From: Promicromonospora soli | GTDB lineage: Bacteria > Actinomycetota > Actinomycetes > Actinomycetales > Cellulomonadaceae | DNA length: 64,000 nt | Reading direction: 5' to 3' | NCBI RefSeq assembly: GCF_014653785.1 | Contig: NZ_BNAS01000001.1 | Location: 791,898 to 855,897, forward strand | In this document: in pieces, positions 14,912 through 31,796 of the stretch | Layout: each line of letters starts with the position of its first letter | Numbering within the stretch: the first letter of the stretch is position 1 | Made by a program: the position numbers and the translations under genes | Notes under the pieces: generated by a model | The model's database searches: none | What the model saw: the letters and a program-made list of their open reading frames with translations, nothing else | What the model was told of the DNA's origin: nothing

Positions 14912-14920
14912 CCTCCGGGG

Positions 14921-15352
14921 TCACCGTCCGTCGTCCCCCGGACGGAAGACGCGCGCGTAGGTCTCCGCGGCCTCGTCGACCACTGACCGGTCGATCGAGG
15001 CGATGACGGTGGTGTCGACCAGGAGCGGCTCGCAGTCGGGTCCGCGCCCGACGATCTCGCCCGTGAGGACCCAGGGGAATCGCTCCGGCGACTGCAGGTG
15101 GGCGTACTGGCACAGCTGCCGCGCGAGCCAGTGCTCGAGCCGCCTGTCCCACCACGGCTCCGGTGTCAGCGGGTTGACGCTGAGCCCGGGCAGCAGGCAC
15201 CCGCTCTCGTGGTCCCGGCTCGCGGTGGCGGCGTCGGCCACCGGCCCAGCGCTGAACCGCACGTAGACCGGAGACACGACCTCGACGAGCTGCGCCAGGT
15301 CCGCGAGCGAACGCAGGTGCGGCACGCCCGGCAGGATCCCGGTCTCGTCCAT
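14921..15352 (-). CDS. DUF6098-like protein paired with P450
   Basis: 143 residues with no signal peptide or membrane span. The central LPGLSVNPLTPEPWW followed by WLARQLCQYAHL and WVLTGEIVGRGPDCEPLL resembles the actinobacterial family DUF6098, of unknown function. It lies 25 bases downstream of the cytochrome P450 gene on the same strand, so the two are probably co-transcribed. The family name is from memory; the pairing is seen directly. Confidence 0.7.
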   Translation of the reverse strand: MDETGILPGVPHLRSLADLAQLVEVVSPVYVRFSAGPVADAATASRDHESGCLLPGLSVNPLTPEPWWDRRLEHWLARQLCQYAHLQSPERFPWVLTGEIVGRGPDCEPLLVDTTVIASIDRSVVDEAAETYARVFRPGDDGR

Positions 15353-15377
15353 GGCGCAGCGCTCGGTCCTGAGCGGT

Positions 15378-16718
15378 TCAGCGGGCGGGTCCGACGCCGG
15401 TCCCGGCGCTGCCGGCGATGCGGAAGCGCAGGCCCAGGTAGTCCACGGTGGCGGGCAGCGGGTCGTGGGCCAGGTAGCGGCCGCGCGCGACGCGCAGGTC
15501 GCGGGCGGCGGCCAGCCGGGTCAGCATGTGCGACGTGACGAGCAGCACTAGGTTCCGCCCCGGGCACGAGACCGGCCCGCCGCTGAACGGGACCAGGCCC
15601 CAGTCGGCGTTGTTGCGGCCGTCCAGCCATGCCTCGGGCGCGAACCCGTCGGCGTGCTCGAGCCGGGCCGGGTCGCGGTGGAAGAACGAGCTCACGACGA
15701 TGAAGTCGGTACCGACCGGCAGGGTGCGCTTGCCCCAGGCCGTGGGGCCGGTCGAGTCCCGCAGCACGACGAACGTCGTCGGCCACAGGCGCACGGACTC
15801 CAGGATGCAGGCCCGCGCGTAGGGCAGCAGCGCCGGACCCGGCCCGGCCGACGCCGCCTCGGCGAGCAGCCGCTCCCGAACGTCCGGGCGGGCGGCGACG
15901 ATCGCGAGCGCCCGCAGGGTCGCCGCCCCGGCGGCGTCGAACGCGAAGAGCCAGTGCGGGATCTGGCCCGCCGCCGTGGCCGGCCCTTCCGCGTGGGCGG
16001 CGGCGGCGAGCGAGCCGGGCTCCGGGTTGGGCAGGTACGACCCGATGCGGCCGTCCAGCTCGGCGCGGAGCCCCTTTCGTCGGGGACGCAGCCACGACCA
16101 GTTGGCGTCGCGGCGCAACTCGTTGAGGGCGTCCAGCAGCTCGCGGTCCCCGCGCGCCCTGGCGCCGAGCACCACCTCCAGGACGACGCCCCACCAGGCT
16201 TCGGCGAAGTCGTCGGCGTCGAACCGCGCGGTTCGGTCCAGCAGGCCTGTCAGGTCTGCGACGCCGCGCTGCGCGGCGTCGACGAAGGCCGCCCCGTCGT
16301 CGTGCACGGGCTGATCCGTCTGCAGCACCGCCTCGTTGAACGGACGGCGGTGCCAGCGCTCGGCGGTCGAGGAGATCAGCACGCCGTCGGGCTGGAAGTG
16401 CGCGAGGGCGCCGCGCTTCTCCCGGGTGGCGGGGGTGAACGGTTCGGGTGAGTGCTCCAGGAGCCGCCGGACGTCTTCGGGCTCCGTGACCAGGACGAGG
16501 CGGCGCGGCCCGAGCCGCAGGACGAGCGGGGCACCGCCGTGGCGTTCGCGCAGGCCGGTCAGCACGGCACGTGCCGTGCGGTCGGTCTGGCGCCGCTCGG
16601 CCCAGGCGGTGGCGCGCGGACGACGGATGATCGCCCCCTGGGCGACCAGCGGGGCGAGCACCATGGAGGCGACGCGGAGCGTCTCGGCGGCCGTCAGGTC
16701 GACGGGCGTTGGGGTCAT
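15378..16718 (-). CDS. cytochrome P450
   Basis: 446 residues. The heme ligand loop FSGGPVSCPGRN places the thiolate at Cys385. The K-helix ExxR is ESVR within ACILESVRLWP. The I-helix has AGAAT in FDAAGAATLRAL, with Thr as the oxygen-activating residue. It is soluble and needs separate redox partners; no ferredoxin or reductase is adjacent. It is the first gene of a pair with the DUF6098-like protein. The substrate is unknown. Confidence 0.93.
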   Translation of the reverse strand: MTPTPVDLTAAETLRVASMVLAPLVAQGAIIRRPRATAWAERRQTDRTARAVLTGLRERHGGAPLVLRLGPRRLVLVTEPEDVRRLLEHSPEPFTPATREKRGALAHFQPDGVLISSTAERWHRRPFNEAVLQTDQPVHDDGAAFVDAAQRGVADLTGLLDRTARFDADDFAEAWWGVVLEVVLGARARGDRELLDALNELRRDANWSWLRPRRKGLRAELDGRIGSYLPNPEPGSLAAAAHAEGPATAAGQIPHWLFAFDAAGAATLRALAIVAARPDVRERLLAEAASAGPGPALLPYARACILESVRLWPTTFVVLRDSTGPTAWGKRTLPVGTDFIVVSSFFHRDPARLEHADGFAPEAWLDGRNNADWGLVPFSGGPVSCPGRNLVLLVTSHMLTRLAAARDLRVARGRYLAHDPLPATVDYLGLRFRIAGSAGTGVGPAR

Positions 16719-16834
16719 GGCGTCTCCTCACCGGGTCTCGGTGCGAGGCCGCGCCCGAGGTCGTCTCTTGCCCCCTTCCGATGCTGGGCCCGCTCGTCGG
16801 GGACTATGACGAACGAGCCCAGCCGGCCTTCGCC

Positions 16835-17251
16835 TCAGCGGTTCGGCTCTGCCTCGGAGATGTCCGCGAGCGCCGACGACGGGTCCCGCTCGACGGCGAG
16901 GTCACCGATCGAGACGATGCCCACCGCCACGTCGCCGTCCATGACGGGGACTCGTCGGACGGCGGCTGCGCGCATCACCTCGACGGCGGTCTCGACCGGG
17001 TCGCTGGGCGCGACGGTGATGATGTCCTCGCTCGCTACCTCTCTGATGGTCGCGTCACCGCCGAGGCCCTTGGCCAGGCCACGCACCACCAGGTCCCGGT
17101 CGGTGACGATCCCGACCGTCTTGGAGTGGGACTTGACGACCAGGGCACCCACGTTCTCCTCGGCCATCGCCCGGGCAGCGACCTGGATCGGATCGGATGC
17201 GTCGACGGCGGTCGGCGCTGGTGTCATCACTTCGGCGACGGTTTGCACCAT
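16835..17251 (-). CDS. two-CBS-domain protein
   Basis: 138 residues consisting of almost nothing but two CBS motifs (VAEVMTPAPTAVDASDP to VGIVTDRDLV, and REVASEDIITVAPSDP to VGIVSIGDLA). Such stand-alone pairs bind adenine nucleotides and often act in stress or energy sensing. The ATG has a strong GGGAGGAG site. The Cys-rich small protein gene precedes it on the same strand, with 105 bases between. Confidence 0.92.
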   Translation of the reverse strand: MVQTVAEVMTPAPTAVDASDPIQVAARAMAEENVGALVVKSHSKTVGIVTDRDLVVRGLAKGLGGDATIREVASEDIITVAPSDPVETAVEVMRAAAVRRVPVMDGDVAVGIVSIGDLAVERDPSSALADISEAEPNR

Positions 17252-17356
17252 GTCGCACTCCTCCCTCGGTAGGGCCGACGGCGGGCTGCTTCACCGGCAT
17301 GTCAACCATGCCTCGACGGCCCACCGTTCGCATGCGGTGCAGACGGGTCAGACGAG

Positions 17357-17599
17357 TCAGACGCTGACGCTGTCGTGGATCTGCGCACCGGTCGTGACGC
17401 GTGCGCAGTGGCTGCAGCAGTAGGTCCTGCTGCCGGCGTCGACGCCGTGCCCGAGCACCGTGACGCCGCAGTGTGCGCACCGCGGGGCCATGGCCTCGGC
17501 GGCGCACTCGAACGAGTCGAAGGTCCCCTTCGTCCCGTCGTCCTTCGTGATCGTGAACGTGTGGGCGTAGTCGTTGCCACACTTGTCACATCTGGCCAT
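17357..17599 (-). CDS. Cys-rich zinc-ribbon / metallothionein-like small protein
   Basis: 80 residues with Cys pairs CDKC near the N-terminus, a lone FEC, CAHC mid-protein and CCSHC near the end, plus His ligand candidates. Homologues in actinobacteria are often labelled prokaryotic metallothionein. It probably binds zinc or another soft metal and acts in the cytoplasm. The GGAGGACAAC before the ATG is a good ribosome-binding site. Neighbouring chromate and copper genes make a metal role plausible. Confidence 0.75.
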   Translation of the reverse strand: MARCDKCGNDYAHTFTITKDDGTKGTFDSFECAAEAMAPRCAHCGVTVLGHGVDAGSRTYCCSHCARVTTGAQIHDSVSV

Positions 17600-17725
17600 G
17601 TTGTCCTCCGTGTCATCGCTCGGTCATGAGTACCGCGCTGCTGGACCCGGCAATTTCACCGTCGCACAGGTGGCGCGCCCTCGCATGCGGCCGGTACGGC
17701 TGACCGGGGGGAGGACCGCAGCGGG

Positions 17726-18604
17726 TCAGCCCAGGGTCTTCTCGAAGAACGCGTCCGCGTAGGGGTTGTCCTGGCTGTACGGCTCGATCTCCCGGTAGCC
17801 GGCCCGCCCGTACATGGCGATCGCCTCGGTCAGCACCCGGTTGGTGTCCAGCACGGCACGCGTGTAGCCGAGCCGGCGCGCCTCGTCCTCCAGGCGCCGC
17901 AGGAGCCGTGCGCCCAGCCCGGCGCCCCGCCAGCCCGTCGCCACCCACATGCGCTTGATCTCGCCCGTCGAGTCGTCGAACCGGCGCACTCCGCCGCACG
18001 CGACGGGGGCGCCGTCGCTGGTCGCCACCACGAACGCGCCGTCCGGCGCGCGGAGCGCGTCCGCGCCTTGGTCCGGTGGGTCGGGCACGAACCCGCCGGG
18101 GAAGCGCCGGTCGAGCTCGGCGTAATACTCCCCCAGCGCCGTGGTGGCCGCGTCGCTCACCGGGTGCACGACCCGCAGGTGCACTGTCGCCGCGCGGATC
18201 AGCAGGTCCGCGGTGCCGAGCGCCTCGTCCAGGCGCGCGCGCTGCCGCTCGGTGAGCGGTTCCAGCAGGCTGCGGGCCTTGCGTTCGGAGCGCGCGTCCA
18301 GCTCGCGGTACGCGGTCAGTCCGACGGCGGTGAGCGTCACCGCCCGACGACGCCGGTCGGCCGGGTCGGGCCGCACCTCGACGAGCCCCTCGTCGGCGAG
18401 CCGGGCCAGGAGCCGGGTCAGGTAGCCCGAGTCGAGGTCCAGCCGCTCGCGCAGCTCGCGGACCGCCGCGCCGTCGGGCCCCACCTCGAAGAGGAGGCGC
18501 GACGCGCCGAGCGGCCGCCCCGTCCCGAGGTAGGACTGCTCCAGGACGCCGATGCGCTGGGTGTAGCTGCGGTTGAAGCGGCGGACGGTTTCGACGGCAC
18601 CCAT
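17726..18604 (-). CDS. MarR regulator fused to GNAT acetyltransferase
   Basis: 292 residues. Residues 1 to about 145 are a MarR winged-helix domain (LDSGYLTRLLARLADEGLVE then the DPADRRRR wing). Residues from about 150 on are a GNAT acetyltransferase with the acetyl-CoA loop GWRGAGLGARLLRRLE. The fusion is a recognised architecture in which the substrate of acetylation is unknown. ATG 18604 was chosen over GTG 18631 because a palindrome sits directly upstream of the ATG. Confidence 0.88.
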   Translation of the reverse strand: MGAVETVRRFNRSYTQRIGVLEQSYLGTGRPLGASRLLFEVGPDGAAVRELRERLDLDSGYLTRLLARLADEGLVEVRPDPADRRRRAVTLTAVGLTAYRELDARSERKARSLLEPLTERQRARLDEALGTADLLIRAATVHLRVVHPVSDAATTALGEYYAELDRRFPGGFVPDPPDQGADALRAPDGAFVVATSDGAPVACGGVRRFDDSTGEIKRMWVATGWRGAGLGARLLRRLEDEARRLGYTRAVLDTNRVLTEAIAMYGRAGYREIEPYSQDNPYADAFFEKTLG

Positions 18605-18723: not shown

Positions 18724-21396
18724 ATGACGCACGCACTCGGCGGGGACCTGCTGAAAGACCGCACGACCGCACCCAGCCACGGTCTCCTGGCGACGGTCTA
18801 CCAGGCGAAGCTGCGTCCCGCCGTCAATCCCGAGTACCTCGTCCGGCGCCCCCGGCTCATCGAGCTGCTGGACACGGCGGTGAAGGCGCCGCTCACGCTC
18901 GTCGTCGCTCCGGCCGGCTCGGGCAAGACCGCCCTGCTCAGGGACTGGGTGGGGTGGACCGACCTGCCCCACGCATGGCTGGCCGTCGACGAGTCGGACC
19001 GTGACCCCGCACAGCTCTGGCTGAGCATCCTCGCCGCGCTCGACGGAATCGCTCCGGGGTGCGCGGAACCCGCCGGCAACCTGATCCGCCGCCGGCAGAC
19101 TCTTGTCGACGCCTTGGGGTCCCTGCTCGACGACCTCGAGTCGCGACCGTACGGCCCGCGCGTCCTCGTGATCGACGACCTCGAGCTGGTCGACGAGGTC
19201 GCGGTGACCGCGCAGCTGAGCATGTTTGTCCAGCACCTCCCGCGCTGGCTGCACGTCGTCATGGCGGGCCGGCACGTCCCGCAGCTCCCGGTCGACCGGC
19301 TGCGGGCCCGCGGAGTGCTCGGCGAGGTCCGCTTTTCCGAGCTGCGGTTCTCGTTCGACGAAGCGACCGAGATGCTTGCCCGCCTGGCTCCGGCGCTGCC
19401 ACCGCAGCAGGTCGCCGAGGCCGCTCGGCACGCCGGTGGCTGGGCCGCCAGCATCCAGCTGGCCGCGCTGGCGGCCCGGTCCGCCGACGCCCGGGCAACC
19501 CTCGACGCCCCGAGGCCCGACGAGGCACGACGGTACCTCGGCGACTATGTCTGGCACGAGGTGCTGAGCGGCGAACCCGCCGACGTCGTCGACGTCCTGG
19601 CCTCGGTATCCGTCGTCGACCGGGTCGAGCCCGGCCTCGCTCGCGTTCTCGCCGGCCGGCCCGACGCCCCCGAGCTGCTGGAGCAGGCCGAGGAACGCGG
19701 GCTGTTCGCCGCCCGCATCGAGCCGTCCGGGGCCTACGAGACGCACGCCCTGGTCCGGGATGCCCTCCTGGCCGAGCTGCGCCGCCGGGATCCGGAGCAC
19801 GTGGCAGAGCTCCACCGGCGCGCCGCGCGCTGGTACGAGAACGCGGGGCGGCCCGTCGCAGCGCTCGAGCACCTGCTGCGCGCCGGCCAGGACCGTGCTG
19901 CGCTGCGGCTGCTGGCCTCGTGCGTCCCGCAGCTCTACGACAGCGGGCGCGAGGCAACCGTCCGGCGCATTCTCCGGGCGATCCCCGCGAGCGCCGCCGA
20001 GGTCGACACCGCCGCGACGGTCGATCTCGCGTGGTGTCAGCTCTTCTCCGACCGGAACGCCTTCGTGCGGACCGTGGATACCCTCGCGGACCGAGACGAC
20101 GACGGGGTCGAGCCGGAGCCGTGGCTGCTCGCGCGGCTCGAGATGCTCCGCGGGGTCTCGGCGACGGTCTCCGGCGACTGGAGCGCCGGGGCGCGGTCCG
20201 CCCGGTCCGCTCTCACCAAGATCGGCGACCGGTGGCCGGTCGATCCCCTGTGCAGGTTCGGCTGGAACGTGCTGGCCCGCGACATCGCGCTCACCGAGCG
20301 GTGGGACGATGCCGGCCCCGAAGTACGCGAGGTGGCCCGCACGCTCAGCACCGTGCCGGAACGGCGGATCGCTTTCGAGGCCACCCGGGCCCTGGGGGTA
20401 GCACTGGCGGGGCGACCGGTCGAAGCCCTGCGTCTGGTGTACGGCACTCGCCGGGCGTCCGAGGCGGCGAACATGACGATGGCGCGGACCGAGCTCATGG
20501 CCGCCGAGGCGCTCGCGAACCGCGAGATCGGTGAGCAGTCGGCCGCGCTTCCCGTCCTGTCTCGCCTGGTCGAGACATCGTGCGACCCTGTTCCGCACTG
20601 TCGGCTGCTCGCGTGCCTCGAGCTGGCCCGGTCGTCGGTCGACGCCGGAGACACCAAGGCTGCGGAGCGCGCGTTCGGTGATGCTGCCGAGATCGCGGAA
20701 ACGGAGCTCAGCGGTCCTGGCAGCCGTGCCTTGCTGGCCCGCGCCGGCACCCTCCTGGCCCTGGCCGACAGCCGGCCGGACGAAGCTCGGCAGTGGGCCG
20801 CCGAGATCGACGACCCGTTCTGGGGCGCTGTCGAGACCGCGCGGGTGCTCGTCGCCGATGGTGACGTCGGGGCGGCGCGCGCCCTGCTGCACGAGGCCAC
20901 CCCGCGATGCGTGCGGCACCACGTGCTCCTCGATCTGCTGCTGAGCCGTACGGCCCACGATGCGGACGAGGCCGAGGCGGCCCTCCTGCGCGCCGTGCGG
21001 CTCGCCGCCGCGCACGGCCTTGTGCAGACCGTCGCGTCCGAGGGGACCGAGATCGTCGAGTCGATCGAGAGGCTCGCCTCGCAGGTGTCGAAGCCCTGGC
21101 TGGACCGGCTCCGCCGCCTCCCGCTCTCCGGAGCGACCCCGTCCCGGACTCCCCCGGTCGAGCTCGTCGAGGCCCTCACCGACCGGCAGCTGGGGATCCT
21201 GCGGATGCTGCCGAGCCGGCTCACCCTGCGGGAGATCGCCGACGAGCTGTTCATCTCGGTGAACACGCTCAAGTTCCACCTCAAGGTGATCTACCGCAAG
21301 CTGGGCTGCGGATCGCGGGCGGAGGCGGCTGAGATGGCGCGGGCCCTGATGAGCCGGCGCCGCAACGGTCGGCCGTCGAGCGGCTGGAGCCGCTGA
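18724..21396 (+). CDS. large ATP-binding LuxR-family regulator (MalT-like, STAND)
   Basis: 890 residues. The Walker A motif APAGSGKTALL is at 62-72 and a Walker B-like VLVIDDLELVD follows. A long helical repeat (TPR-like) middle comes next, then a C-terminal LuxR helix-turn-helix (LTDRQLGILRML to TLREIADELFISVNTLKFHL). Proteins of this type switch on transcription when an inducer permits ATP-bound oligomerisation. The ATG at 18724 follows GGGAGC. It precedes an exporter by 31 bases and probably controls it. Both genes lie between the inverted repeats. Confidence 0.9.
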   Translation: MTHALGGDLLKDRTTAPSHGLLATVYQAKLRPAVNPEYLVRRPRLIELLDTAVKAPLTLVVAPAGSGKTALLRDWVGWTDLPHAWLAVDESDRDPAQLWLSILAALDGIAPGCAEPAGNLIRRRQTLVDALGSLLDDLESRPYGPRVLVIDDLELVDEVAVTAQLSMFVQHLPRWLHVVMAGRHVPQLPVDRLRARGVLGEVRFSELRFSFDEATEMLARLAPALPPQQVAEAARHAGGWAASIQLAALAARSADARATLDAPRPDEARRYLGDYVWHEVLSGEPADVVDVLASVSVVDRVEPGLARVLAGRPDAPELLEQAEERGLFAARIEPSGAYETHALVRDALLAELRRRDPEHVAELHRRAARWYENAGRPVAALEHLLRAGQDRAALRLLASCVPQLYDSGREATVRRILRAIPASAAEVDTAATVDLAWCQLFSDRNAFVRTVDTLADRDDDGVEPEPWLLARLEMLRGVSATVSGDWSAGARSARSALTKIGDRWPVDPLCRFGWNVLARDIALTERWDDAGPEVREVARTLSTVPERRIAFEATRALGVALAGRPVEALRLVYGTRRASEAANMTMARTELMAAEALANREIGEQSAALPVLSRLVETSCDPVPHCRLLACLELARSSVDAGDTKAAERAFGDAAEIAETELSGPGSRALLARAGTLLALADSRPDEARQWAAEIDDPFWGAVETARVLVADGDVGAARALLHEATPRCVRHHVLLDLLLSRTAHDADEAEAALLRAVRLAAAHGLVQTVASEGTEIVESIERLASQVSKPWLDRLRRLPLSGATPSRTPPVELVEALTDRQLGILRMLPSRLTLREIADELFISVNTLKFHLKVIYRKLGCGSRAEAAEMARALMSRRRNGRPSSGWSR

Positions 21397-23074: not shown

Positions 23075-23100
23075 CGGGTGAGGCATCACCTCTCGTCGGG
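23075..23100 (-). repeat. right copy of inverted repeat flanking LuxR-MFS cassette
   Basis: Inverted relative to the copy at 18631-18657. It contains the stop codon of the CYTH-like gene and its last codons. The left copy therefore looks like a displaced copy of this gene end, or both are copies of a small hairpin element. Confidence 0.7.
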
Positions 23101-23880
23101 CTCACCGTCCCCGGCCGTCCGTTCGCCGTCCGGTGCCGTCAGAGCGGCGAGCACCGCCCGGGTCTTAGTCTCCTGCGGGGCACTCAGGTCGAGCCCTTTC
23201 CCCGCGAGGAGGGCCTTCGTCTCCGCGGCGGCCTGGAACGCCACATCGGGGGGTGCCTTCGTGGACAGCTCGAGGATCCGGGACCCGTCGGGCAGCATCC
23301 ACAGCTCGGCAACCAGGCGTCGCGGGTACCCCTTCGCCCGGAACCGGCACTTGAGCAGGTTGACCGGGCCGAGGACGACGAGGTCGTCGGCTCCGACGCC
23401 GTCCGGGAGGCGCTCGCTCAGCAGTCTCCGCTGGTCGTCGTCGAGCAGGCCGCGGATGCCGCGGGCGCCGGTCATCACCTTGCGCACCCGGCGGTCGGGG
23501 GCCTCGACGGTGAGCGAGCACGAGCAGGTGTAGCCGGCCGGTGACGCGTCCAGCTCGACCTTGAACCCATCGTGGTTCCGGAATCCCGCAGGGACGTCGG
23601 ACGGCACCGCCGGCCGGAGCTTGACCGTCAGGTCGGCGGGTCTGCGCTGGGTCCGCCGGGCGCGCAGCACCACTCCGGCCGACGAGAGCTGCAGGTCGGG
23701 GGTGTCGACGAACGCGACCTGGCGCAGGACCGCGTCCAGCGGGTCGATGCCCAGGAGCCGCACGGCGGAACGCTGGAAGTCGTCGGGGACGGTGAGCTTG
23801 AGCTCCACCGAGTCCACGTCGGGCAGGATCGCGAGCATGCCGGCGAGCTGCTCGGCGTCGTAGGTCGGGATGACGGACAT
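23086..23880 (-). CDS. CYTH-like domain protein
   Basis: 264 residues. VELKLTVPD near the N-terminus, then FVDTPDLQLSSAGVVLRARR and LTVKLRP, follow the strand pattern of the CYTH tunnel fold, which binds triphosphates or polyphosphate through Glu/Lys/Arg side chains. The classic ExExK is reduced to VELKLTV. An enzymatic role (adenylate cyclase, thiamine-triphosphatase, polyphosphate binding) cannot be chosen. ATG 23880 was chosen as the first start adjoining the domain. It is divergent from the DUF6325-like gene. Confidence 0.65.
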   Translation of the reverse strand: MSVIPTYDAEQLAGMLAILPDVDSVELKLTVPDDFQRSAVRLLGIDPLDAVLRQVAFVDTPDLQLSSAGVVLRARRTQRRPADLTVKLRPAVPSDVPAGFRNHDGFKVELDASPAGYTCSCSLTVEAPDRRVRKVMTGARGIRGLLDDDQRRLLSERLPDGVGADDLVVLGPVNLLKCRFRAKGYPRRLVAELWMLPDGSRILELSTKAPPDVAFQAAAETKALLAGKGLDLSAPQETKTRAVLAALTAPDGERTAGDGEPDER

Positions 23881-24023: not shown

Positions 24024-24515
24024 ATGACCACGCAGGACGTGGGGCCCGAGCTCGAGGTCGGACCCATCGACTACCTTGCCCTCGAGTTCCCGGGCAGCAG
24101 GCTGCAGGGCAAGGGCCTGGCGGCGCTGCTCGACCTCGTCGAACGCGGGATCATCCGCATCCTCGACCTCAGGGTCGCGATGCGGACCGAGGCCGGCGAC
24201 ATCATGGCCGTCGCGCTCACCGATCTCGATCACGACGGCGAGCTGGACCTCGCCGTGTTCGAGGGCGCCAGCTCCGGGCTGCTCGGCGACGACGACCTCG
24301 GCGAGACCGCCGCCTTGATCGCCCCCGGTAACGCGGTCGGTCTCATCGTGTACGAGAACACCTGGGCCGGCCCGTTCGTGACGGCGATGCGGGAGGCCGG
24401 AGCGCAGGTGATCGCCAGCGGTCGCATCCCGGTCACGGACGTGATCGCGGCGCTCGACGCCCTCGAGGCGGAGCAGCCGCCCGAGGACACGACACAGACG
24501 GAAAGGACGACGTGA
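24024..24515 (+). CDS. DUF6325-like small acidic protein
   Basis: 163 residues. GPIDYLALEFPG at the N-terminus, LLDLVERGIIRILDLR and VIVYENTWA-type sequence (LIVYENTWAGPFVTAM) resemble the DUF6325/DUF1269-type stress-associated proteins. It is soluble and acidic. The ATG follows GAGGAGA. Its stop overlaps the start of the SHOCT gene (TGATG at 24513-24517), so both are translated together. Function unknown. Confidence 0.7.
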   Translation: MTTQDVGPELEVGPIDYLALEFPGSRLQGKGLAALLDLVERGIIRILDLRVAMRTEAGDIMAVALTDLDHDGELDLAVFEGASSGLLGDDDLGETAALIAPGNAVGLIVYENTWAGPFVTAMREAGAQVIASGRIPVTDVIAALDALEAEQPPEDTTQTERTT

Positions 24516-24793
24516 TGGGACTTCTCCGAGGCGTGGCACGCACCGCCGTCGTCGCCGGCACCGCCACTGCGGTGTCCAACCGGGTCTCGCGGCGCCAGGC
24601 CAACCGCTGGGCCGCGCAGGACCCTTATCAGCAGGCCTATGCAGAGCCCGCGCCGCAACCAGTCGCGGCCCCTGCCCCGCCGGCGGCCGACGACGTGTTC
24701 GCTCAGCTCGAGCGGCTCGGTCGCCTGCGTGACGACGGTGTGCTCACCGACGCCGAGTTCAGCGCGCAGAAAGCCAAGCTCCTTGCCGGATGA
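24515..24793 (+). CDS. SHOCT-domain small protein
   Basis: 92 residues. A short N-terminal hydrophobic/basic segment is followed by a Pro/Ala linker and a C-terminal SHOCT motif (FAQLERLGRLRDDGVLTDAEF then KAKLL). SHOCT modules mediate oligomerisation or membrane tethering. It is coupled to the DUF6325-like gene, a pairing common in actinobacteria. Confidence 0.85.
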   Translation: MGLLRGVARTAVVAGTATAVSNRVSRRQANRWAAQDPYQQAYAEPAPQPVAAPAPPAADDVFAQLERLGRLRDDGVLTDAEFSAQKAKLLAG

Positions 24794-24883: not shown

Positions 24884-26341
24884 ATGAATGCGATGGACGC
24901 TTCTCGACCGCCCGCGGCCGCGGCGCGGGCAAAGGTACCGGCGACAGCGTGGATCTCCTGGATCGCGCTCGCCATGATGACCACGAGCTCGGTGGCGAGC
25001 CTGCGGGCCGCGCCGACCATGGCGGTCTACGGGCTGGCGTGCGTGTTCCTCTACCTCGTGCCGGCCGTCGTGTTCCTGCTGCCCACGTCGCTCGTCTCGG
25101 CCGAGCTCGCCTCGGGCTGGAAGGGCGGCGTGTACAACTGGGTCGCGCGCGGCGTCTCCAAGCCGATGGGCTTTCTCGCCGTGTGGTGCCAGTTCGCGAT
25201 GACGATCTTCTACTACCCGAGCCTGCTCGGCTTCGTCGCGAGCACGCTCGCCTACGTCATCAACCCGGAGCTGGCGAGCAGCGGCGTGTGGACCGCGTGC
25301 GTCATCATCGTCGTCTACTGGAGCGGCGTCTGGGTCTCCTCGCGCGGGACCAAGGGTGTCGCCGGCCTCGCGAGCGGGGGCCTGATCATCGGCACCCTGA
25401 TCCCCGGCGTCGTGCTCGTGCTGCTCGGCACCTTGTTCCTCGGCCAGGGCAACGAGTCGGCGGCACCGATGACGGCCGAGAACATCTTCCCGGTGTGGGC
25501 AGGGCTCGCCAGCCTCGTACTCATCGTGAACAACTTCCTTTCCTACTCCGGCATGGAGATGAACGCGGTGCACGTCTCGTCGCTGAAGAACCCGGCGAAG
25601 GAGTTCCCGAAGGCGATGTTCCTGGCCATGGGAATGGTGCTGCTGATCTTCATCCTGCCCGCGCTGGCGATCAGCTGGGTGGTACCCGCGGAGGAGCTGT
25701 CGCTCACCGCGGGCGTGATGCAGGCCTTCGACGCGGTCTTCGCCAACTTCGGAGCGCAGTGGCTCACCCCGATCGTCGGGGTCATGCTGGTGGCCGCCTC
25801 GCTCGGCGGCATGCTCACCTGGCTGGCCGGCCCGTCGAAGGGCCTGCTGCTGATCTCCCGTCAGGAGGGCTACCTGCCACCGTTCCTGCAGCGGCTCAAC
25901 AAGAACGGCGTGCAGCAGAACATCCTGGTCGTCCAGGGCATCATCACGACAGTGATCGGCCTGATGTACGCGTTGATCCCCGACGTCTCGAGCGCCTACT
26001 GGATCTTCTCGGTCATCACGACGCAGGTGTACCTGATCATGTACCTGCTCATGTTCGTCGCAGCCATCGGGCTGCGGCGCAAGTACCCTGACCATCCGCG
26101 CGGCTTCCACGCACCGCTCCTGGGCACGCTCTGTGTCGTCGGCTTCGTCGCATCGCTCGCGGCCCTGCTCGTCGGATTCGTCCCGCCGTCCCAGTTCGGC
26201 GGTGGCAACGCCGGCATCTACTTCGTCATCGTCGGTGGCGGCGCTCTGGGCCTGGGGCTCCTGGTCCCGTACCTCTTCTATCGCCTGCGCAAGCCCTCGT
26301 GGAGGCAAGAAGCGACAACCGAGGGGGTGAGCCCGTCATGA
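24884..26341 (+). CDS. APC-superfamily amino acid antiporter (glutamate:GABA-antiporter-like)
   Basis: 485 residues with about 12 membrane spans. ATAWISWIALAMMTTSSVASLR in TM1, SAELASGWKGGVYNWV between TM2 and TM3, and YSGMEMNAVHVSSLKNP in the TM6 region fit the glutamate:GABA antiporter branch of the APC superfamily. Such proteins exchange an amino acid for its decarboxylated or related product. No decarboxylase is adjacent. Its stop overlaps the next ATG by 4 nt, opening a three-step coupled operon. Confidence 0.85.
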   Translation: MNAMDASRPPAAAARAKVPATAWISWIALAMMTTSSVASLRAAPTMAVYGLACVFLYLVPAVVFLLPTSLVSAELASGWKGGVYNWVARGVSKPMGFLAVWCQFAMTIFYYPSLLGFVASTLAYVINPELASSGVWTACVIIVVYWSGVWVSSRGTKGVAGLASGGLIIGTLIPGVVLVLLGTLFLGQGNESAAPMTAENIFPVWAGLASLVLIVNNFLSYSGMEMNAVHVSSLKNPAKEFPKAMFLAMGMVLLIFILPALAISWVVPAEELSLTAGVMQAFDAVFANFGAQWLTPIVGVMLVAASLGGMLTWLAGPSKGLLLISRQEGYLPPFLQRLNKNGVQQNILVVQGIITTVIGLMYALIPDVSSAYWIFSVITTQVYLIMYLLMFVAAIGLRRKYPDHPRGFHAPLLGTLCVVGFVASLAALLVGFVPPSQFGGGNAGIYFVIVGGGALGLGLLVPYLFYRLRKPSWRQEATTEGVSPS

Positions 26342-26787
26342 GCACCGTCGACGAGACGCAGCCCCGAAGCGAGCGCTGGATCCTGTACCTGGTGGTGGGC
26401 ATAGCAATCGGCGCCATGATCGTGCTCGCCCTGGTCTTCCACCGTGCAGCCGACCAGACCCGGGAGGCCGAGGCGAAGGCTGACGAGCTGATCCAGGCGC
26501 TCGTCGACGCGGGCGCCACAGCCACACTGTCGCAGGAACAGATCGTCGCAGTGCTCGGCGAGGACGGCGGAGCGACGTGCGCCAACCCGAACGACGCCCT
26601 GAGCAGGTCGACGCTGAATGCGCAGCTCACCAACGGCGCCGCCGGGCCCGGCGCGCGCCCCGTCATCTCGGACCGTGACATCCTGCGGGGGCAGCTCCTG
26701 ATCATCGAGATCTACTGCCCGGACGAGCTGCCGGAGTTCGAGGAGTTCGTGGCAGGCCTTGAGACGGACGAGGTGGCCGGCTCATGA
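26338..26787 (+). CDS. unknown single-pass membrane protein in antiporter operon
   Basis: 149 residues. A short cytoplasmic N-terminus, one membrane helix (about 15-36, ILYLVVGIAIGAMIVLALVF) and a soluble outer domain with two cysteines (TCANPNDAL and EIYCPDEL) that could form a disulfide. I do not recognise the family. It overlaps the antiporter and the M20 peptidase genes by 4 nt each, so it is made together with both and may be an accessory subunit. Confidence 0.75.
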   Translation: MSTVDETQPRSERWILYLVVGIAIGAMIVLALVFHRAADQTREAEAKADELIQALVDAGATATLSQEQIVAVLGEDGGATCANPNDALSRSTLNAQLTNGAAGPGARPVISDRDILRGQLLIIEIYCPDELPEFEEFVAGLETDEVAGS

Positions 26788-28151
26788 CGACGCAGCTCCG
26801 CGCCCTTGTCGAGAAGGAGATGCCGCGGGTGCGGGACGAGCTGGCCGAGCTCGTCGCCTTCCGCTCGGTCGCGGACCCCCGGCAGTTCCCGCCCGAGGAG
26901 TGCGAACGCGCCGCACGCTGGGTGCTGACCCGTTTCGCCGACGTCGGCTTCGAGGACGCGCACCTCGAGCGTACGGCGGACGGCAGCATGGCGGTCGTCG
27001 GGTCGAGGTCATCCCCCCACCCTGCCTCGCCGACCGTGCTGCTCTACGCGCACTACGACGTACAGCCACCGCTGGACGAGTCGGCCTGGCGCACACCGCC
27101 GTTCGAGCTGACGGAGGCTGACGGCAGGTGGTACGGCCGCGGCAGCGCGGACTGCAAGGGCAACATCGTCATGCTCCTGGCCGCTCTTCGGGCGCTCGCC
27201 GAGGTGCCGGTACACCTGAAGCTGGTCGTGGAGGGCTCGGAGGAGCAGGGCACCGGCGGCCTCGAGGCGTTCGTGCCGGAGCACGCCGACCTCCTGCGCG
27301 CCGACGCCGTCCTCGTGTGCGACACGGGGAACGCCGCCGTCGGGCACCCCGCCGCAACTGTCAGCCTGCGCGGGATGGTCAACGCGGTGCTGACGCTCCA
27401 GGCCCTCGGCTCGGAAGTCCACTCCGGCATGTTCGGGGGCCCCGCCCCTGACGCGCTTGCCGCACTGGTGGCGGTGCTGGCGACTCTGCGGGACGAGCAT
27501 GGGAACACCACGATCGCGGGGCTCGACAACAGCGGGACCTGGTCAGGCGAGGCCTATCCACCCGACCAGTTCCGCTGGGACGCCACCGTGATCGAGGGTG
27601 TCTCGCTGCTCGGCGACGGCAGCGTCGCGGACATGCTCTGGGCACGGCCCGCTCTCACGATACTGGGCATCGACTGCCCGCCGGTGGTGGGCTCGGCATC
27701 CGCGGTCACCCCGCGCGCCTCGGCCCGGCTGAACCTGAGGGTCCCGCCGGGCACGACCGCCCACAAGGCCCGGCAGGCGTTGGAGAGCCACCTGCGCGCC
27801 GCAGCCCCCTGGGGCGTCGCCGTCCAGGTCACGCTCGAGGCCGAGGGCGAGCCCTTCCGCGCCTCGGTCGACGGACCCGCGTTCCAGGCCCTTGCCGCGG
27901 CCCTCGAGGAGGCCTACAGAAGACCGATGACGAAGCTCGGCCAAGGTGGGTCGATCCCGCTGTGCAACGTCTTCGCCGACACCTACCCCGGCGCCGAGAT
28001 CATCCTCGTCGGCGTGGAGGAACCGCTCGCGGCGATCCACGCCCCCAACGAAAGTGTCGACCCCGGCGAGATCGCGAACATGGCAATCGGCACGGCCCGG
28101 TTCCTGCAGCGCTACGGCGAGGCCGCCGAAACCAGGACGGCACCGGCGTGA
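26784..28151 (+). CDS. M20-family metallopeptidase (dipeptidase-like)
   Basis: 455 residues. The dinuclear-zinc signatures of the family are intact: YAHYDVQPP (His and catalytic Asp), GRGSADCKGN (bridging Asp), EGSEEQGTGGL (catalytic Glu plus ligand) and CDTGN. HSGMFGG is the dimerisation-domain His motif. It cleaves a dipeptide or N-acyl amino acid in the cytoplasm. The start and stop both lie in 4-nt overlaps, tying it to the membrane protein and the P-type ATPase. Confidence 0.9.
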   Translation: MTTQLRALVEKEMPRVRDELAELVAFRSVADPRQFPPEECERAARWVLTRFADVGFEDAHLERTADGSMAVVGSRSSPHPASPTVLLYAHYDVQPPLDESAWRTPPFELTEADGRWYGRGSADCKGNIVMLLAALRALAEVPVHLKLVVEGSEEQGTGGLEAFVPEHADLLRADAVLVCDTGNAAVGHPAATVSLRGMVNAVLTLQALGSEVHSGMFGGPAPDALAALVAVLATLRDEHGNTTIAGLDNSGTWSGEAYPPDQFRWDATVIEGVSLLGDGSVADMLWARPALTILGIDCPPVVGSASAVTPRASARLNLRVPPGTTAHKARQALESHLRAAAPWGVAVQVTLEAEGEPFRASVDGPAFQALAAALEEAYRRPMTKLGQGGSIPLCNVFADTYPGAEIILVGVEEPLAAIHAPNESVDPGEIANMAIGTARFLQRYGEAAETRTAPA

Positions 28152-30922
28152 CGAAGGCAAGCGTCCCGCGGACGGCCGAGGCGGCCGCGGCCAACCCGGC
28201 GTCCGAACCCGCACGCGAGGTCGCGGAGCGGCTCTACGTCGACGTGGCCCAGGGGCTGCCGGCCGCCGAGGCGCGCCGCCGGCTGGAGTCCTACGGGGCG
28301 AACCGGCTGGTCGCGGCCAAGAAGGAGGCGCCGCTGCAGGCGTTCCTGCGGCAGTACCGCGACTTCATGCAGATCGTCCTGCTCGTCGCGGCAGTGGTGA
28401 ACCTCCTGATCACCGGCGACGTCGGCACCTCGCTGGTGCTCGCCGGCCTGACCCTGTTCAACGCGGTCATCGGCCTGCGCCAGGAGGCCAAGGCCGAGGA
28501 GAGCGTCGCCGCGCTGGCAAAGATGATGCAGACGGTCGCCCGGGTACGCCGCGACGGCCAGGCGATCGAGGTCGACGCCGAAGAGCTGGTGCCGGGCGAC
28601 GTCGTGCTCGTCGAGGCAGGCAACCGCGTACCGGCCGACTGCCGGATCACGCTGGCCGCCGCCCTGGAGATCGAGGAGGCTGCCCTCACCGGCGAGAGCC
28701 TCCCGGTGGGGAAGTCGACCGACCCGGTCCCGGGCCACGACGTGCCGCTGGGCGACCGGACCTGCATGGCCTACATGAACACCTCGGTCACCCGAGGACG
28801 GGGCGAGATGGTGGTCACCGCGACAGGCATGGGCACCGAGATCGGCCACATCGCCGGCCTGCTGGCCAGCACCGAGGCGGACAAGACACCGTTGCAGAAG
28901 CAGCTGGACGGCCTGTCGAAGATCATCGCGTCCATCGCGGCCGTAGCGCTGGTCGTCGTGGTGGCCCTCGGCCTTGCGCGGGGCGAAGCTTTCGAAACCT
29001 TGTTCATCACCGGCGTGGCGCTCGCGGTAGCCGCGATCCCGACCGGCCTGCCCGCCGTCGTCACCGCCCTGCTGTCCATGGGGACCCGCGACATCGCGCG
29101 CCGCAACGCGATAGTCAAGCGGCTGCCGGCCGTGGAGACGCTCGGCTCGACGTCGGCGATCTGCTCCGACAAGACCGGCACCCTGACGCTGAACAAGATG
29201 ACCGCCCGGGAGCTGGCGATTCCCGGCCACGGCGTGTTCACCGTCTCGGGCGAGGGCTACGGCACCGCCGGCGAGATCAAGCACGTCGGCGGTTCACGCG
29301 TCGACCTGGACCCGTACCTGTTGCCGATGGTCCTGTGCGCGGACGCCGTCCTCGACGGGGAGAGCCTGGTCGGCGACCCCACCGAGGGGGCGCTGATCGT
29401 GCTCGGAGCCAAGGGCGGGCTGGACGTCGACGTCACGCGAGGCAGCTTCCCGCGCATCGCAGAGGTGCCGTTCGACTCCGAGTACAAGTTCATGGCGACC
29501 TTCCACGAGATGACCGACCGCGACGGGCGCGCCGTGGTGCGGTGCTACGTCAAGGGCGCACCTGACGTGCTGATCTCGCGCGGCGCAAGCTATCGGGCGC
29601 CGGACGGCGGGCTCGTACCCGTCACCGAGGAGAACCGGCACCTGGCGCTCGAGGCGAACGACCGGATGGCGAAGTCCGGTGAGCGCGTCATGGTCCTCGC
29701 CCAGCGCGACGTCGACCACGCGACCTTCGCCGCTGTGCGATCGCGTGGCGGCGAAGACCTGATCGGCCTGGTCACCGACCTGACGCTGCTCGCGATGGTC
29801 GGCATCGTGGACCCGCCGCGCCCGGAGGCCAAGGCAGCGATCGCCGAGTGCCACTCAGCCGGGATCCGGGTGCGGATGATCACCGGTGACCACGCGACGA
29901 CAGCGGCCGCGATCGCCGGCGAGCTCGGCATCGAGGGCGCGGCGCTGACAGGGGCACAGTTCGCGGCCATGGGCGACGATGCCGTGCTGGCACAGCTCGA
30001 TCACATCGGGGTGATCGCGCGGGTTGCGCCCGAGGACAAGATCCGGCTCGTGCAGCTGCTCAAGCGCTCGGGCAACGTGGTGGCGATGACCGGCGACGGC
30101 GTGAACGACGCGCCCGCTCTCAAGGCCGCCGACATCGGGGTCGCGATGGGCATCACCGGCACCGAGGTCTCCAAGGAGGCCGCGGTGATGATCCTGACCG
30201 ACGACAACTTCGCGACCATCGTCAACGCCGTCTCCTACGGCCGCACCCTCTACGACAACCTGGTGAAGTACCTCCGCTTCCAGATGTCGACCCTCGTCGC
30301 GTACATCGCCATCTTCCTGGCCGCGGGCACGCTGGGGATCGCCGGGGGTGTACCGCTGAACCCGCTGCAGATCCTGTGGCTCAACATGGTGATCGACATC
30401 CCCATCGCGATCGCCCTCGGCTTCGACCGGGCCACCAAGGGCCTGATGGAGCGGCCGCCGCGGCCGGTCGGGGCGCCCGTGCTGTCTCGGACCGACTGGA
30501 TCCGGCTCTGCGTCCAGGGCGCGGTCATGACGGTGGGCGCCCTGGTGGCGTACCAGGTAGGCGCCGACCTGGGCGGGCCGGTGGTCGCGGCGACCATGCT
30601 GCTCACCACGTTGTCGATCTTCCACGTGGTCGCCGGCCTGCTGTCCCGCGACCAGCTCGGCACCATCTTCGACCGCGACGCAATACCCGGCAGGGCCCAG
30701 CTGCGCCGCTACGGCCTGGCTGTCCTGGCGATCGTCGCGGTCACCACCATCGACGTGCTCGAACGGATCTTCGCCACCACGGAGCTCGACGGCCGTCAGT
30801 GGGGTATCTGTATCGCGCTCGCGACGAGCCTCCTGGTGGTCGAGGAGCTCATCAAGCTCTTCCTCCGACGCCGCCGGACTGCTGCCCCCGAGTCGGACAT
30901 CGGCTCTGCGAGGCGCGCATAA
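28148..30922 (+). CDS. cation-transporting P-type ATPase, altered ion-site residues
   Basis: 924 residues with the P-type core: TGES at 181-184, DKTGTLT with the phosphorylated Asp at 341, and GDGVNDAP around 649-656. Ten membrane helices and a cation_ATPase_N domain place it near P2 Ca2+ pumps. However the M4 motif reads PTGLPAV (298-304) where Ca2+ pumps have PEGLP, and the M5 stretch YLRFQMSTLVAYIAIF lacks the Asn and Glu ligands; M6 keeps N and D (NMVID). The ion is therefore unlikely to be calcium and could be H+, Na+ or another. The GTG start lies in a GTGA overlap. Confidence 0.9.
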   Translation: MTKASVPRTAEAAAANPASEPAREVAERLYVDVAQGLPAAEARRRLESYGANRLVAAKKEAPLQAFLRQYRDFMQIVLLVAAVVNLLITGDVGTSLVLAGLTLFNAVIGLRQEAKAEESVAALAKMMQTVARVRRDGQAIEVDAEELVPGDVVLVEAGNRVPADCRITLAAALEIEEAALTGESLPVGKSTDPVPGHDVPLGDRTCMAYMNTSVTRGRGEMVVTATGMGTEIGHIAGLLASTEADKTPLQKQLDGLSKIIASIAAVALVVVVALGLARGEAFETLFITGVALAVAAIPTGLPAVVTALLSMGTRDIARRNAIVKRLPAVETLGSTSAICSDKTGTLTLNKMTARELAIPGHGVFTVSGEGYGTAGEIKHVGGSRVDLDPYLLPMVLCADAVLDGESLVGDPTEGALIVLGAKGGLDVDVTRGSFPRIAEVPFDSEYKFMATFHEMTDRDGRAVVRCYVKGAPDVLISRGASYRAPDGGLVPVTEENRHLALEANDRMAKSGERVMVLAQRDVDHATFAAVRSRGGEDLIGLVTDLTLLAMVGIVDPPRPEAKAAIAECHSAGIRVRMITGDHATTAAAIAGELGIEGAALTGAQFAAMGDDAVLAQLDHIGVIARVAPEDKIRLVQLLKRSGNVVAMTGDGVNDAPALKAADIGVAMGITGTEVSKEAAVMILTDDNFATIVNAVSYGRTLYDNLVKYLRFQMSTLVAYIAIFLAAGTLGIAGGVPLNPLQILWLNMVIDIPIAIALGFDRATKGLMERPPRPVGAPVLSRTDWIRLCVQGAVMTVGALVAYQVGADLGGPVVAATMLLTTLSIFHVVAGLLSRDQLGTIFDRDAIPGRAQLRRYGLAVLAIVAVTTIDVLERIFATTELDGRQWGICIALATSLLVVEELIKLFLRRRRTAAPESDIGSARRA

Positions 30923-30929
30923 TGGCTCG

Positions 30930-31796
30930 ATGGATGGACGAGTGGCGCTCGTGACCGGCGCGACGGGTGGCCTCGGAAGGGCGGTCGCGACCGCCCTGGC
31001 GCGCGAAGGCGCGACCGTCGTCGTGGTCGGACGCTCAAGCTCGCGGGCGGAAGACGCGATGCGCGACATCCGCGCGGCTGCCCCGGCCGCGAGGCTCGAG
31101 CCGCTTGCGTGCGACCTCTCCGTCCAGGCATCGATCCGCTCGGCGGCGCGCGAGTTCCTCTCCCGCCACGACAAGCTCGACGTGCTCGTCAACGCCGCGG
31201 GCGTGTTCCGCAAGGAACGCCACGTGACCCCCGATGGGCTCGAGCTCACGTTCGCCACCAACGTGCTGGGGTACTTCCTGCTCACGAACCTGCTCCTGGA
31301 CGCTCTCAAGCGGGCCGCGACCGACACGTCGAGGACCTCGCGGATCGTGAACATCGCGTCCAGGTACTCGTATGGCTGGTCGGTCACCAAGCTCGACTTC
31401 GACGACCTCCAGACCGCTCAGGGCAAGTACAGCTTCACGCGCTCGACGCCCCCGACGATGCTGGGCCGCGTTCTCTTCACGCAGGAGCTCGCGGAGCGAC
31501 TCCGGGGGACGGGCGTGGTCGTGAACGCCGTGCACCCGGGCCTCGTCAAGCACACGGCCCTTCTCAACGACGTCGGCGGACCGTTCCGCTGGATGACGAA
31601 CACGTTCGGCAGGTCCGCCGAGAAGGCCGCCGACACCGCGGTCTGGCTCGCGACCTCACCTGAGGCGGAGGCGGTCTCCGGCAAGCTGTGGGCCAACCGC
31701 AAGGAGCTGCCGACGCCCGGCATGGGCTCGGACCCGGACGCACGGAGACGGTTGTGGGACGAGTGCGCGCGCCTGTCCGGGCTCATGGGGTCATAG
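30930..31796 (+). CDS. short-chain dehydrogenase/reductase-like protein, catalytic Tyr/Lys missing
   Basis: 288 residues. TGATGGLG binds the nucleotide and VNAAGV (NAG region) and NIAS are present, resembling retinol-dehydrogenase-type SDRs. At the expected YxxxK position (about 173-177) the sequence is TPPTM, so both catalytic residues appear to be lost. It could be a non-catalytic NAD(P)-binding sensor or use other residues. It starts seven bases after the ATPase stop and ends overlapping the convergent ribokinase by six bases. Confidence 0.8.
   Translation: MDGRVALVTGATGGLGRAVATALAREGATVVVVGRSSSRAEDAMRDIRAAAPAARLEPLACDLSVQASIRSAAREFLSRHDKLDVLVNAAGVFRKERHVTPDGLELTFATNVLGYFLLTNLLLDALKRAATDTSRTSRIVNIASRYSYGWSVTKLDFDDLQTAQGKYSFTRSTPPTMLGRVLFTQELAERLRGTGVVVNAVHPGLVKHTALLNDVGGPFRWMTNTFGRSAEKAADTAVWLATSPEAEAVSGKLWANRKELPTPGMGSDPDARRRLWDECARLSGLMGS

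Follow-up and report, generated by a model that had tools for sequence, protein, structure and literature searches.

In described GadC systems, a decarboxylase or a glutaminase converts the imported amino acid into the exported one, as set out in extracts of two reports (PMC3663535, PMC6250119). Heavy subunits of amino-acid exchangers reportedly first arose in metazoans, according to an extract of a third (PMC6472337). Here we describe a GadC-like antiporter gene and the genes behind it in a 64,000-nucleotide (nt) stretch of Promicromonospora soli DNA (NCBI RefSeq assembly GCF_014653785.1, contig NZ_BNAS01000001.1, positions 791,898 to 855,897 of the forward strand), which we call the window. 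The gene directly after the antiporter gene encodes a 149-amino acid (aa) protein, here UNK, which is the most informative gene of the set and was not singled out in an earlier, sequence-only reading of this DNA. From sequence comparisons we consider it probable that UNK serves the GadC-type antiporter as a dedicated extracytoplasmic subunit, that the pair is usually accompanied by an enzyme making the exported amino acid (here an M20 dipeptidase), and that the P-type ATPase encoded next in the window lies outside this unit. The proposal is built on gene order, gene overlap, co-occurrence, one gene fusion, enzyme swapping, and a genome in which glutamate decarboxylase was undetected.

Gene layout

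Based on the sequence and its translations, four genes on the + strand occupy positions 24884–30922. The sequence-only reading had them joined by three 4-nt overlaps (26338, 26784, and 28148), and these are exact in the sequence.

24884–26341, + strand: GadC-like APC amino-acid antiporter, 485 aa (AA_permease_2, NF053662)
26338–26341, + strand: stop/start overlap ATGA of antiporter and UNK genes (sequence)
26338–26787, + strand: UNK, 149 aa, single N-terminal membrane helix and small helical domain, C81 and C127 (family models: none)
26784–26787, + strand: stop/start overlap ATGA of UNK and M20 genes (sequence)
26784–28151, + strand: M20 dipeptidase of the CNDP2/DUG1 kind, PRK07907 subfamily (NF005914, PDB alignment)
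28148–28151, + strand: overlap GTGA of M20 and ATPase genes (sequence)
28148–30922, + strand: P2-like P-type ATPase (best model TIGR01522, below cut-off)

Conservation of the gene order

Named genomes were scanned with the antiporter alignment, and 528 stretches encoding relatives were identified; our counts rest on the best 80 of these (L058–L137), which span Promicromonospora, Isoptericola, Nocardioides, Kribbella, Arthrobacter, Rhodococcus, Actinoplanes, Agromyces, and other genera. UNK is the next same-strand gene after the antiporter in 79/80 loci; the sole exception, in Actinokineospora (L104), has M20 in UNK's place. In each of the 79 loci with UNK, the antiporter and UNK genes overlap by exactly 4 nt (ATGA in 70, GTGA in 9). 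M20 follows UNK in 63/79 loci, and that pair overlaps by 4 nt in 24 of the 63. For comparison, a 4-nt overlap is present in 146 of 769 other co-directional neighbor pairs in the 80 loci; because such overlaps are frequent in this DNA, by themselves they prove little. The linked operon described in the sequence-only reading thus holds far beyond close relatives for antiporter, UNK, and M20, and does not hold for the ATPase.

Twelve further antiporter loci, with 73–87% identity, were identified among 61 genomes from the same family, the window's own among them. UNK follows the antiporter in 12/12 of these and M20 follows in 7/12; no ATPase match above 45 bits occurs in the stretches fetched around them. 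The three congeners among the 61 genomes gave no antiporter match.

Genes in relatives were called with a self-written codon-usage script, and start sites may be wrong. In L047 it overlooked the antiporter; TBLASTN gives antiporter, UNK, and M20 there. The labels M20, M24, glutamate decarboxylase (GAD), glutaminase (GLS), ThrE, and MFS in relatives denote the best BLAST match to one reference each, and family models were used to score relatives' neighbors in selected examples. Counts given below as "within four genes" are reduced by contig or locus ends. Judged by length, several loci lie on the same contigs (L040/L081, L041/L085, L045/L136, L061/L231, L065/L205, and L095/L206); since the named, family, and genome scans overlap in contigs, their counts are not additive.

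Pairing of UNK with the antiporter

A search of 296 genomes of the class gave 10 UNK loci, spread over 9 genomes, and 12 loci with an antiporter of this kind (E 1e-100), spread over 11 genomes. Each UNK locus adjoins one of the 12 antiporters; the remaining two antiporters (L169 and L170) adjoin a glutamate decarboxylase gene. With a wider UNK model, six new strong loci were identified in 396 genomes of the phylum and another six in 58 relatives of one distant carrier. When the genome scans for UNK, which were not directed at the antiporter, are combined, 22/22 strong UNK loci (E ≤4.3e-12) stand beside a GadC-like antiporter, with the pairing in L194 and L196 read separately; the separate UNK of L194 was missed by the script and identified by eye. 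UNK precedes the antiporter in L199. The protein is rare (10/396 phylum genomes), and wider searches around G406 and G497 identified no further UNK loci. Four weak matches (E 1.6e-4 to 5.3e-4) from the scan of 58 relatives were set aside; among the weak matches, L203 and L204 have no antiporter in their surroundings, and G743 and G744 were left out of this reading.

In L196 (5936–7861), antiporter, a linker rich in Ala, Pro, and Glu, a membrane helix, and the UNK domain form one 641-aa open reading frame with M20 upstream. The antiporter part of this fusion scores 636.4 bits with NF053662, just under the cut-off of 640.

The enzyme beside the pair varies. UNK lies between the antiporter and a glutamate decarboxylase in L154, L156, L194, L198, and L201, and all five decarboxylases score above the TIGR01788 cut-off. 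In L202, a decarboxylase (BLAST label) is upstream of antiporter and UNK, and in L155, L197, L199, and L200, UNK is present without an adjoining enzyme of these kinds. Because UNK is kept when the enzyme changes, it most likely serves the antiporter. By analogy, the best reading is that M20 holds the place taken in relatives by glutamate decarboxylase or glutaminase. Near the GadC–UNK–decarboxylase genes of L156 are genes (14622–17837) resembling those for carbamate kinase, ornithine carbamoyltransferase, and arginine deiminase, as judged by eye.

In a tree of 52 antiporters, the M20-linked proteins form a branch of 35 rows with a Shimodaira–Hasegawa-like approximate likelihood ratio test (SH-aLRT) value of 99, and the presence of UNK requires three changes. 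The tree was made by a quick method from 52 hand-chosen rows, and it has long branches and unsure deep joins.

The UNK protein and its proposed role

UNK matched no Pfam or NCBIfam model at E 0.001, and a PDB sequence search with the UNK alignment gave a single match at E 1.4. When 64 members were searched against Pfam to E 0.1, weak matches were scattered, with at most 5/64 members per family and a best E of 0.0011 among the most frequent of these families. C81 and C127, with their surrounding motifs, are common to 86/86 close homologues. The structure model of the window's UNK (mean predicted local distance difference test score [pLDDT] 77.8) has short helices behind the membrane segment, and the model of a distant, lipoprotein-like UNK (mean pLDDT 79.0) has the same series of short helices; the alignments behind the two models share rows, and the models are not independent. 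Distant UNKs at several loci have lipobox-like N-termini, identified by eye and not with a predictor, and on that account the domain would lie outside. The domain is probably located on the outer side of the membrane, where a disulfide bond between the cysteines is probable.

Under the arrangement that we propose, a GadC-type antiporter would exchange amino acids, and the functional unit would be antiporter and UNK, usually with an enzyme. The membrane helix would anchor UNK, a role taken in distant relatives by a lipid anchor. On the outer face, its small helical and probably disulfide-bonded domain may stabilize the antiporter, gate it, or select its substrate, and the 4-nt overlap would couple UNK synthesis to antiporter synthesis. 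The substrate of the cytoplasmic M20 would be either internal peptides or an imported compound (a dipeptide or acyl-amino acid), and its product would be the amino acid leaving in exchange, as with glutamate decarboxylase or glutaminase for other GadC-type antiporters. The sequence-only reading had also let the peptidase supply the exchanged amino acid; that idea fits the linkage of relatives to decarboxylase or glutaminase, and we keep it in conditional form. We infer the physical complex, the outer location, the coupling of dipeptidase to exchange, and the substrate from sequence.

Several observations weigh against this proposal. The 80 named loci are related by descent, so 79/79 overlaps do not equal 79 events; M20 is absent behind UNK in 16 of the 79, and the fusion of antiporter and UNK was found once only. 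In L104, antiporter and M20 occur without UNK, and decarboxylase-linked antiporters occur without UNK in L052, L055, L056, L169, and L170; UNK is therefore not required by every GadC-type antiporter. L195, L196, L197, and L198 lack both cysteines and L194 lacks one of them, so a disulfide is not essential. The positive-inside rule is unsupportive, as Arg and Lys are more numerous after the helix than before it in 37/86 proteins and fewer in 16/86. A Foldseek search with the UNK model gave a best E of 3.4 and nothing usable, and VIA-align gave a best Z of 4.3, a value that is uninformative for helical models and excludes no fold. Peptide hydrolysis consumes no protons, unlike decarboxylation, and for this reason the analogy with acid resistance may fail.

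Alternative roles for M20 and UNK

The M20 protein scores 602.7 bits with NF005914/PRK07907 (cut-off 300). Its residues 9–426 of 455 align with CNDP2 (4ruh, also 2zof), and DUG1 (4g1p) was matched too. H90, D92, D123, E153, E154, D180, H213, and H419 are identical in 86/86 M20 proteins, the window's included; we take their metal and catalytic roles from CNDP2, as read off the alignment. Within four genes of the named loci, an M24 Xaa-Pro-type peptidase occurs in 42/80, MFS transporters in 39/80, and ThrE-like exporters in 22/80, with the M24 and ThrE families confirmed by family models in examples. That M24 and ThrE-like proteins are so often nearby favors a role in using peptides and releasing amino acids rather than in acid resistance.

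These neighbors fit a set for peptide catabolism and overflow, in which M20, often with M24, would cleave peptides that other importers take up, and antiporter and UNK together with ThrE-like exporters would vent the surplus, with no part in acid resistance. We regard this as a possible account, less probable than the subunit proposal; it overlaps that proposal and differs in what M20 acts on. The decarboxylase results agree with it, as glutamate decarboxylase was found within four genes of none of the 80 loci and was undetected in the window's genome. On the other side, M24 and ThrE genes do not adjoin the unit in the window, the outer neighbors may be inherited synteny, and UNK is left unexplained.

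A second alternative makes UNK a sensor or signaling protein that reports an outside substrate or pH and is merely co-expressed with the antiporter. A single helix with a small domain, existing in membrane-helix and lipoprotein-like forms and having no fold match, would suit such a role. The stretch N-terminal to the helix is short and variable, however, with no cytoplasmic output domain seen, and both the L196 fusion and the pairing with the antiporter whatever enzyme is nearby point to the transporter itself. We therefore consider a sensor unlikely.

The P-type ATPase and local neighbors

The ATPase looks like a local chance neighbor and not part of the antiporter–UNK–enzyme unit. It scores 629.8 bits with TIGR01522 (cut-off 798.3) and 542.4 bits with a second Ca2+-ATPase model (cut-off 703.4), and so lies below the cut-offs of these PMR1- or SERCA-type models. 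In transmembrane segment M4, "iptgl" aligns with "ipeal" of LMCA1, placing a threonine where the Ca2+ pump has a glutamate, which we take to be the Ca2+ site of LMCA1. The motif PTGLPAVVT occurs in M4 of all 9 rows that have at least 56% identity and span M4, the window's included; two of these rows (L095 and L206) are from the same contig, and a tenth row (L148) ends before M4.

A co-directional ATPase directly behind UNK or M20 was found in 0/80 named loci. Within four genes, a P-type ATPase occurs in 6/80, and TBLASTN identified P-type ATPase similarity above 40 bits anywhere in the locus in 14/80. L058 and L061 each have an ATPase gene of 75% identity that points away from the DUF6325, SHOCT, antiporter, and UNK genes. 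Near relatives of the ATPase at E 1e-250 were identified in 19 of 121 genomes from the family, a set that includes the window's own. The most similar ones (84–85% identity) are those of four congeners, where the 18–19 kb around the ATPase gene contain unrelated genes and no antiporter. Three Promicromonospora loci carry a LAL regulator, a minus-strand gene, DUF6325, SHOCT, antiporter, UNK, and M20, with no adjoining ATPase.

The remaining features of the window's neighborhood are as follows.

18724–21396, + strand: MalT-like LuxR-family (LAL) regulator, 79–81% identical upstream of the unit in three Promicromonospora loci
23086–23880, − strand: conserved protein without known family, 84–87% identical in three Promicromonospora loci
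24024–24515, + strand: DUF6325 protein, lineage-specific neighbor (Pfam)
24515–24793, + strand: SHOCT-domain protein, lineage-specific neighbor (Pfam)
30930–31796, + strand: short-chain dehydrogenase/reductase (SDR), fifth gene, 7 nt 3' of the ATPase (family match), not conserved with the unit

An MFS transporter gene also lies upstream of the antiporter in the window, in addition to the LAL regulator, minus-strand, DUF6325, and SHOCT genes. Elsewhere in the family, L058, L061 (= L231), and L230 again combine this ATPase with the LAL regulator, DUF6325, and SHOCT, in varying orders and with or without the antiporter, and some near relatives of the ATPase adjoin DUF6325 and SHOCT genes.

The sequence-only reading had assembled a four-part, amino-acid-fueled machine for ion or pH homeostasis in which the ATPase handled the counter-ion. 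The three overlaps in the window and the six loci with an ATPase within four genes lend this some weight, as does L201 (2604–8709), where a P-type ATPase follows, in the same direction, an antiporter, a lipoprotein-like UNK, and a glutamate decarboxylase. Against it, the L201 ATPase is only 35% identical, no co-directional ATPase directly follows UNK or M20 in the 80 loci, the closest ATPases have no antiporter in the 18–19 kb around them, and the unit occurs without an ATPase in the three Promicromonospora loci. We judge such a machine improbable: the four-gene order named as its check is not conserved, and the ATPase offered as a working part is mostly found apart from the antiporter. As a unit, the four-gene operon was rejected, with the ATPase not in the conserved order and the unit found without it in congeners. 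The DUF6325 and SHOCT genes were correctly identified upstream, as Pfam confirms; their suggested role as stress-sensing parts finds little company, with DUF6325 within four genes of the unit in 7/80 named loci and SHOCT in 8/80. The "CYTH-like" label for the gene at 23086–23880 is unsupported, because no Pfam or NCBIfam model matched at E 0.001.

The antiporter and glutamate decarboxylase

The antiporter passes the NF053662 GadC model (692.5 bits, cut-off 640), and its only PDB relatives at E 0.001 are GadC structures (4dji/4djk). It aligns to residues 16–467 of 511 in GadC, and 16 residues remain after the aligned part; on this basis the C-terminal plug of Escherichia coli GadC is missing. 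The plug-truncated GadC variant comprises residues 1–470, according to an extract of its description (PMC3663535).

A search with TIGR01788 at E 0.001 detected no glutamate decarboxylase in the window's own 5.4-Mb genome; the same search was positive in 8 of 14 control genomes. For the genome's only PF00282 protein, the best model is diaminobutyrate decarboxylase, below its cut-off. Glutamate/γ-aminobutyric acid (GABA) acid resistance was accordingly rejected for this genome, with the decarboxylase undetected and the PF00282 protein closer to diaminobutyrate decarboxylase. Classical acid resistance of this kind, as the curated model name implies, is very unlikely because the decarboxylase is undetected and the M20-linked antiporters form their own branch, even though NF053662 is passed and UNK-bearing relatives with a glutamate decarboxylase exist. 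For the same reason, "glutamate/GABA antiporter" is probably wrong as a functional label here. The NF053662 name "GadC" may be over-applied, and many of its actinobacterial bearers may carry another substrate.

Comparison with known systems

Like the GadC/GadB system, this locus has a GadC-family antiporter (NF053662) beside a gene for a cytoplasmic enzyme, and distant UNK-bearing relatives carry glutamate decarboxylase itself. It differs in having an M20 dipeptidase, an extra protein (UNK), no detected decarboxylase, and a similarity that ends near GadC residue 470, the position given in the extract cited above (PMC3663535). The GadC/YbaS (GlsA) system of glutamine-dependent acid resistance, as an extract of its report describes it (PMC6250119), also joins the antiporter to an alternative enzyme; there the enzyme is a glutaminase and UNK is absent, whereas here it is M20. 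Two actinobacterial loci, L053 and L054, have an antiporter with a glutaminase and without UNK (the L054 enzyme by BLAST label; those of L052 and L053 were scored with family models). The L053 pair, and by BLAST label that of L054, resembles the pair of glutamine-dependent acid resistance; of the two antiporters only that of L053 was scored, and it falls in a separate family, TIGR03813 (808.2 bits, cut-off 650).

The window's M20 aligns with the cytosolic M20 dipeptidases CNDP2 and DUG1 and differs from both in its linkage to an antiporter–UNK gene pair. Animal LAT/xCT exchangers with 4F2hc or rBAT share with our proposal a membrane-anchored protein with an outer domain that serves an exchanger of the APC superfamily; the likeness is one of analogy only. 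UNK, at ~150 aa, is not of the SLC3 family found in SLC7/SLC3 transporters, as no Pfam or NCBIfam model matched it at E 0.001. In the open-licence literature, the titles and abstract beginnings among the matches listed contained no UNK, no accessory subunit of a bacterial GadC, and no antiporter–M20 pair.

Taken with these likenesses and differences, the gene arrangement suggests a GadC-type enzyme–exchanger couple with a new, putative subunit, UNK, and with it a two-part amino-acid exchanger of a kind not known in bacteria. More tentatively, and with rather less confidence than we place in UNK as a subunit of this antiporter, actinobacterial GadC-type antiporters might in general be two-subunit transporters. 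UNK would then found a family of subunits that serve APC-superfamily exchangers from outside the cytoplasm, anchored by a membrane helix or a lipid; this family would be a bacterial counterpart, of independent origin, to the 4F2hc/rBAT heavy chain, and the M20 branch would make a third kind of enzyme–exchanger couple. If UNK is a subunit, the partner of a class of bacterial exchangers has been missing from its description, and APC transporters of two parts would have at least two origins. In its M20 form, the unit would show that a GadC exchanger with a product-making enzyme is a modular device that takes different enzymes: a decarboxylase, a glutaminase, or, as here, a dipeptidase.

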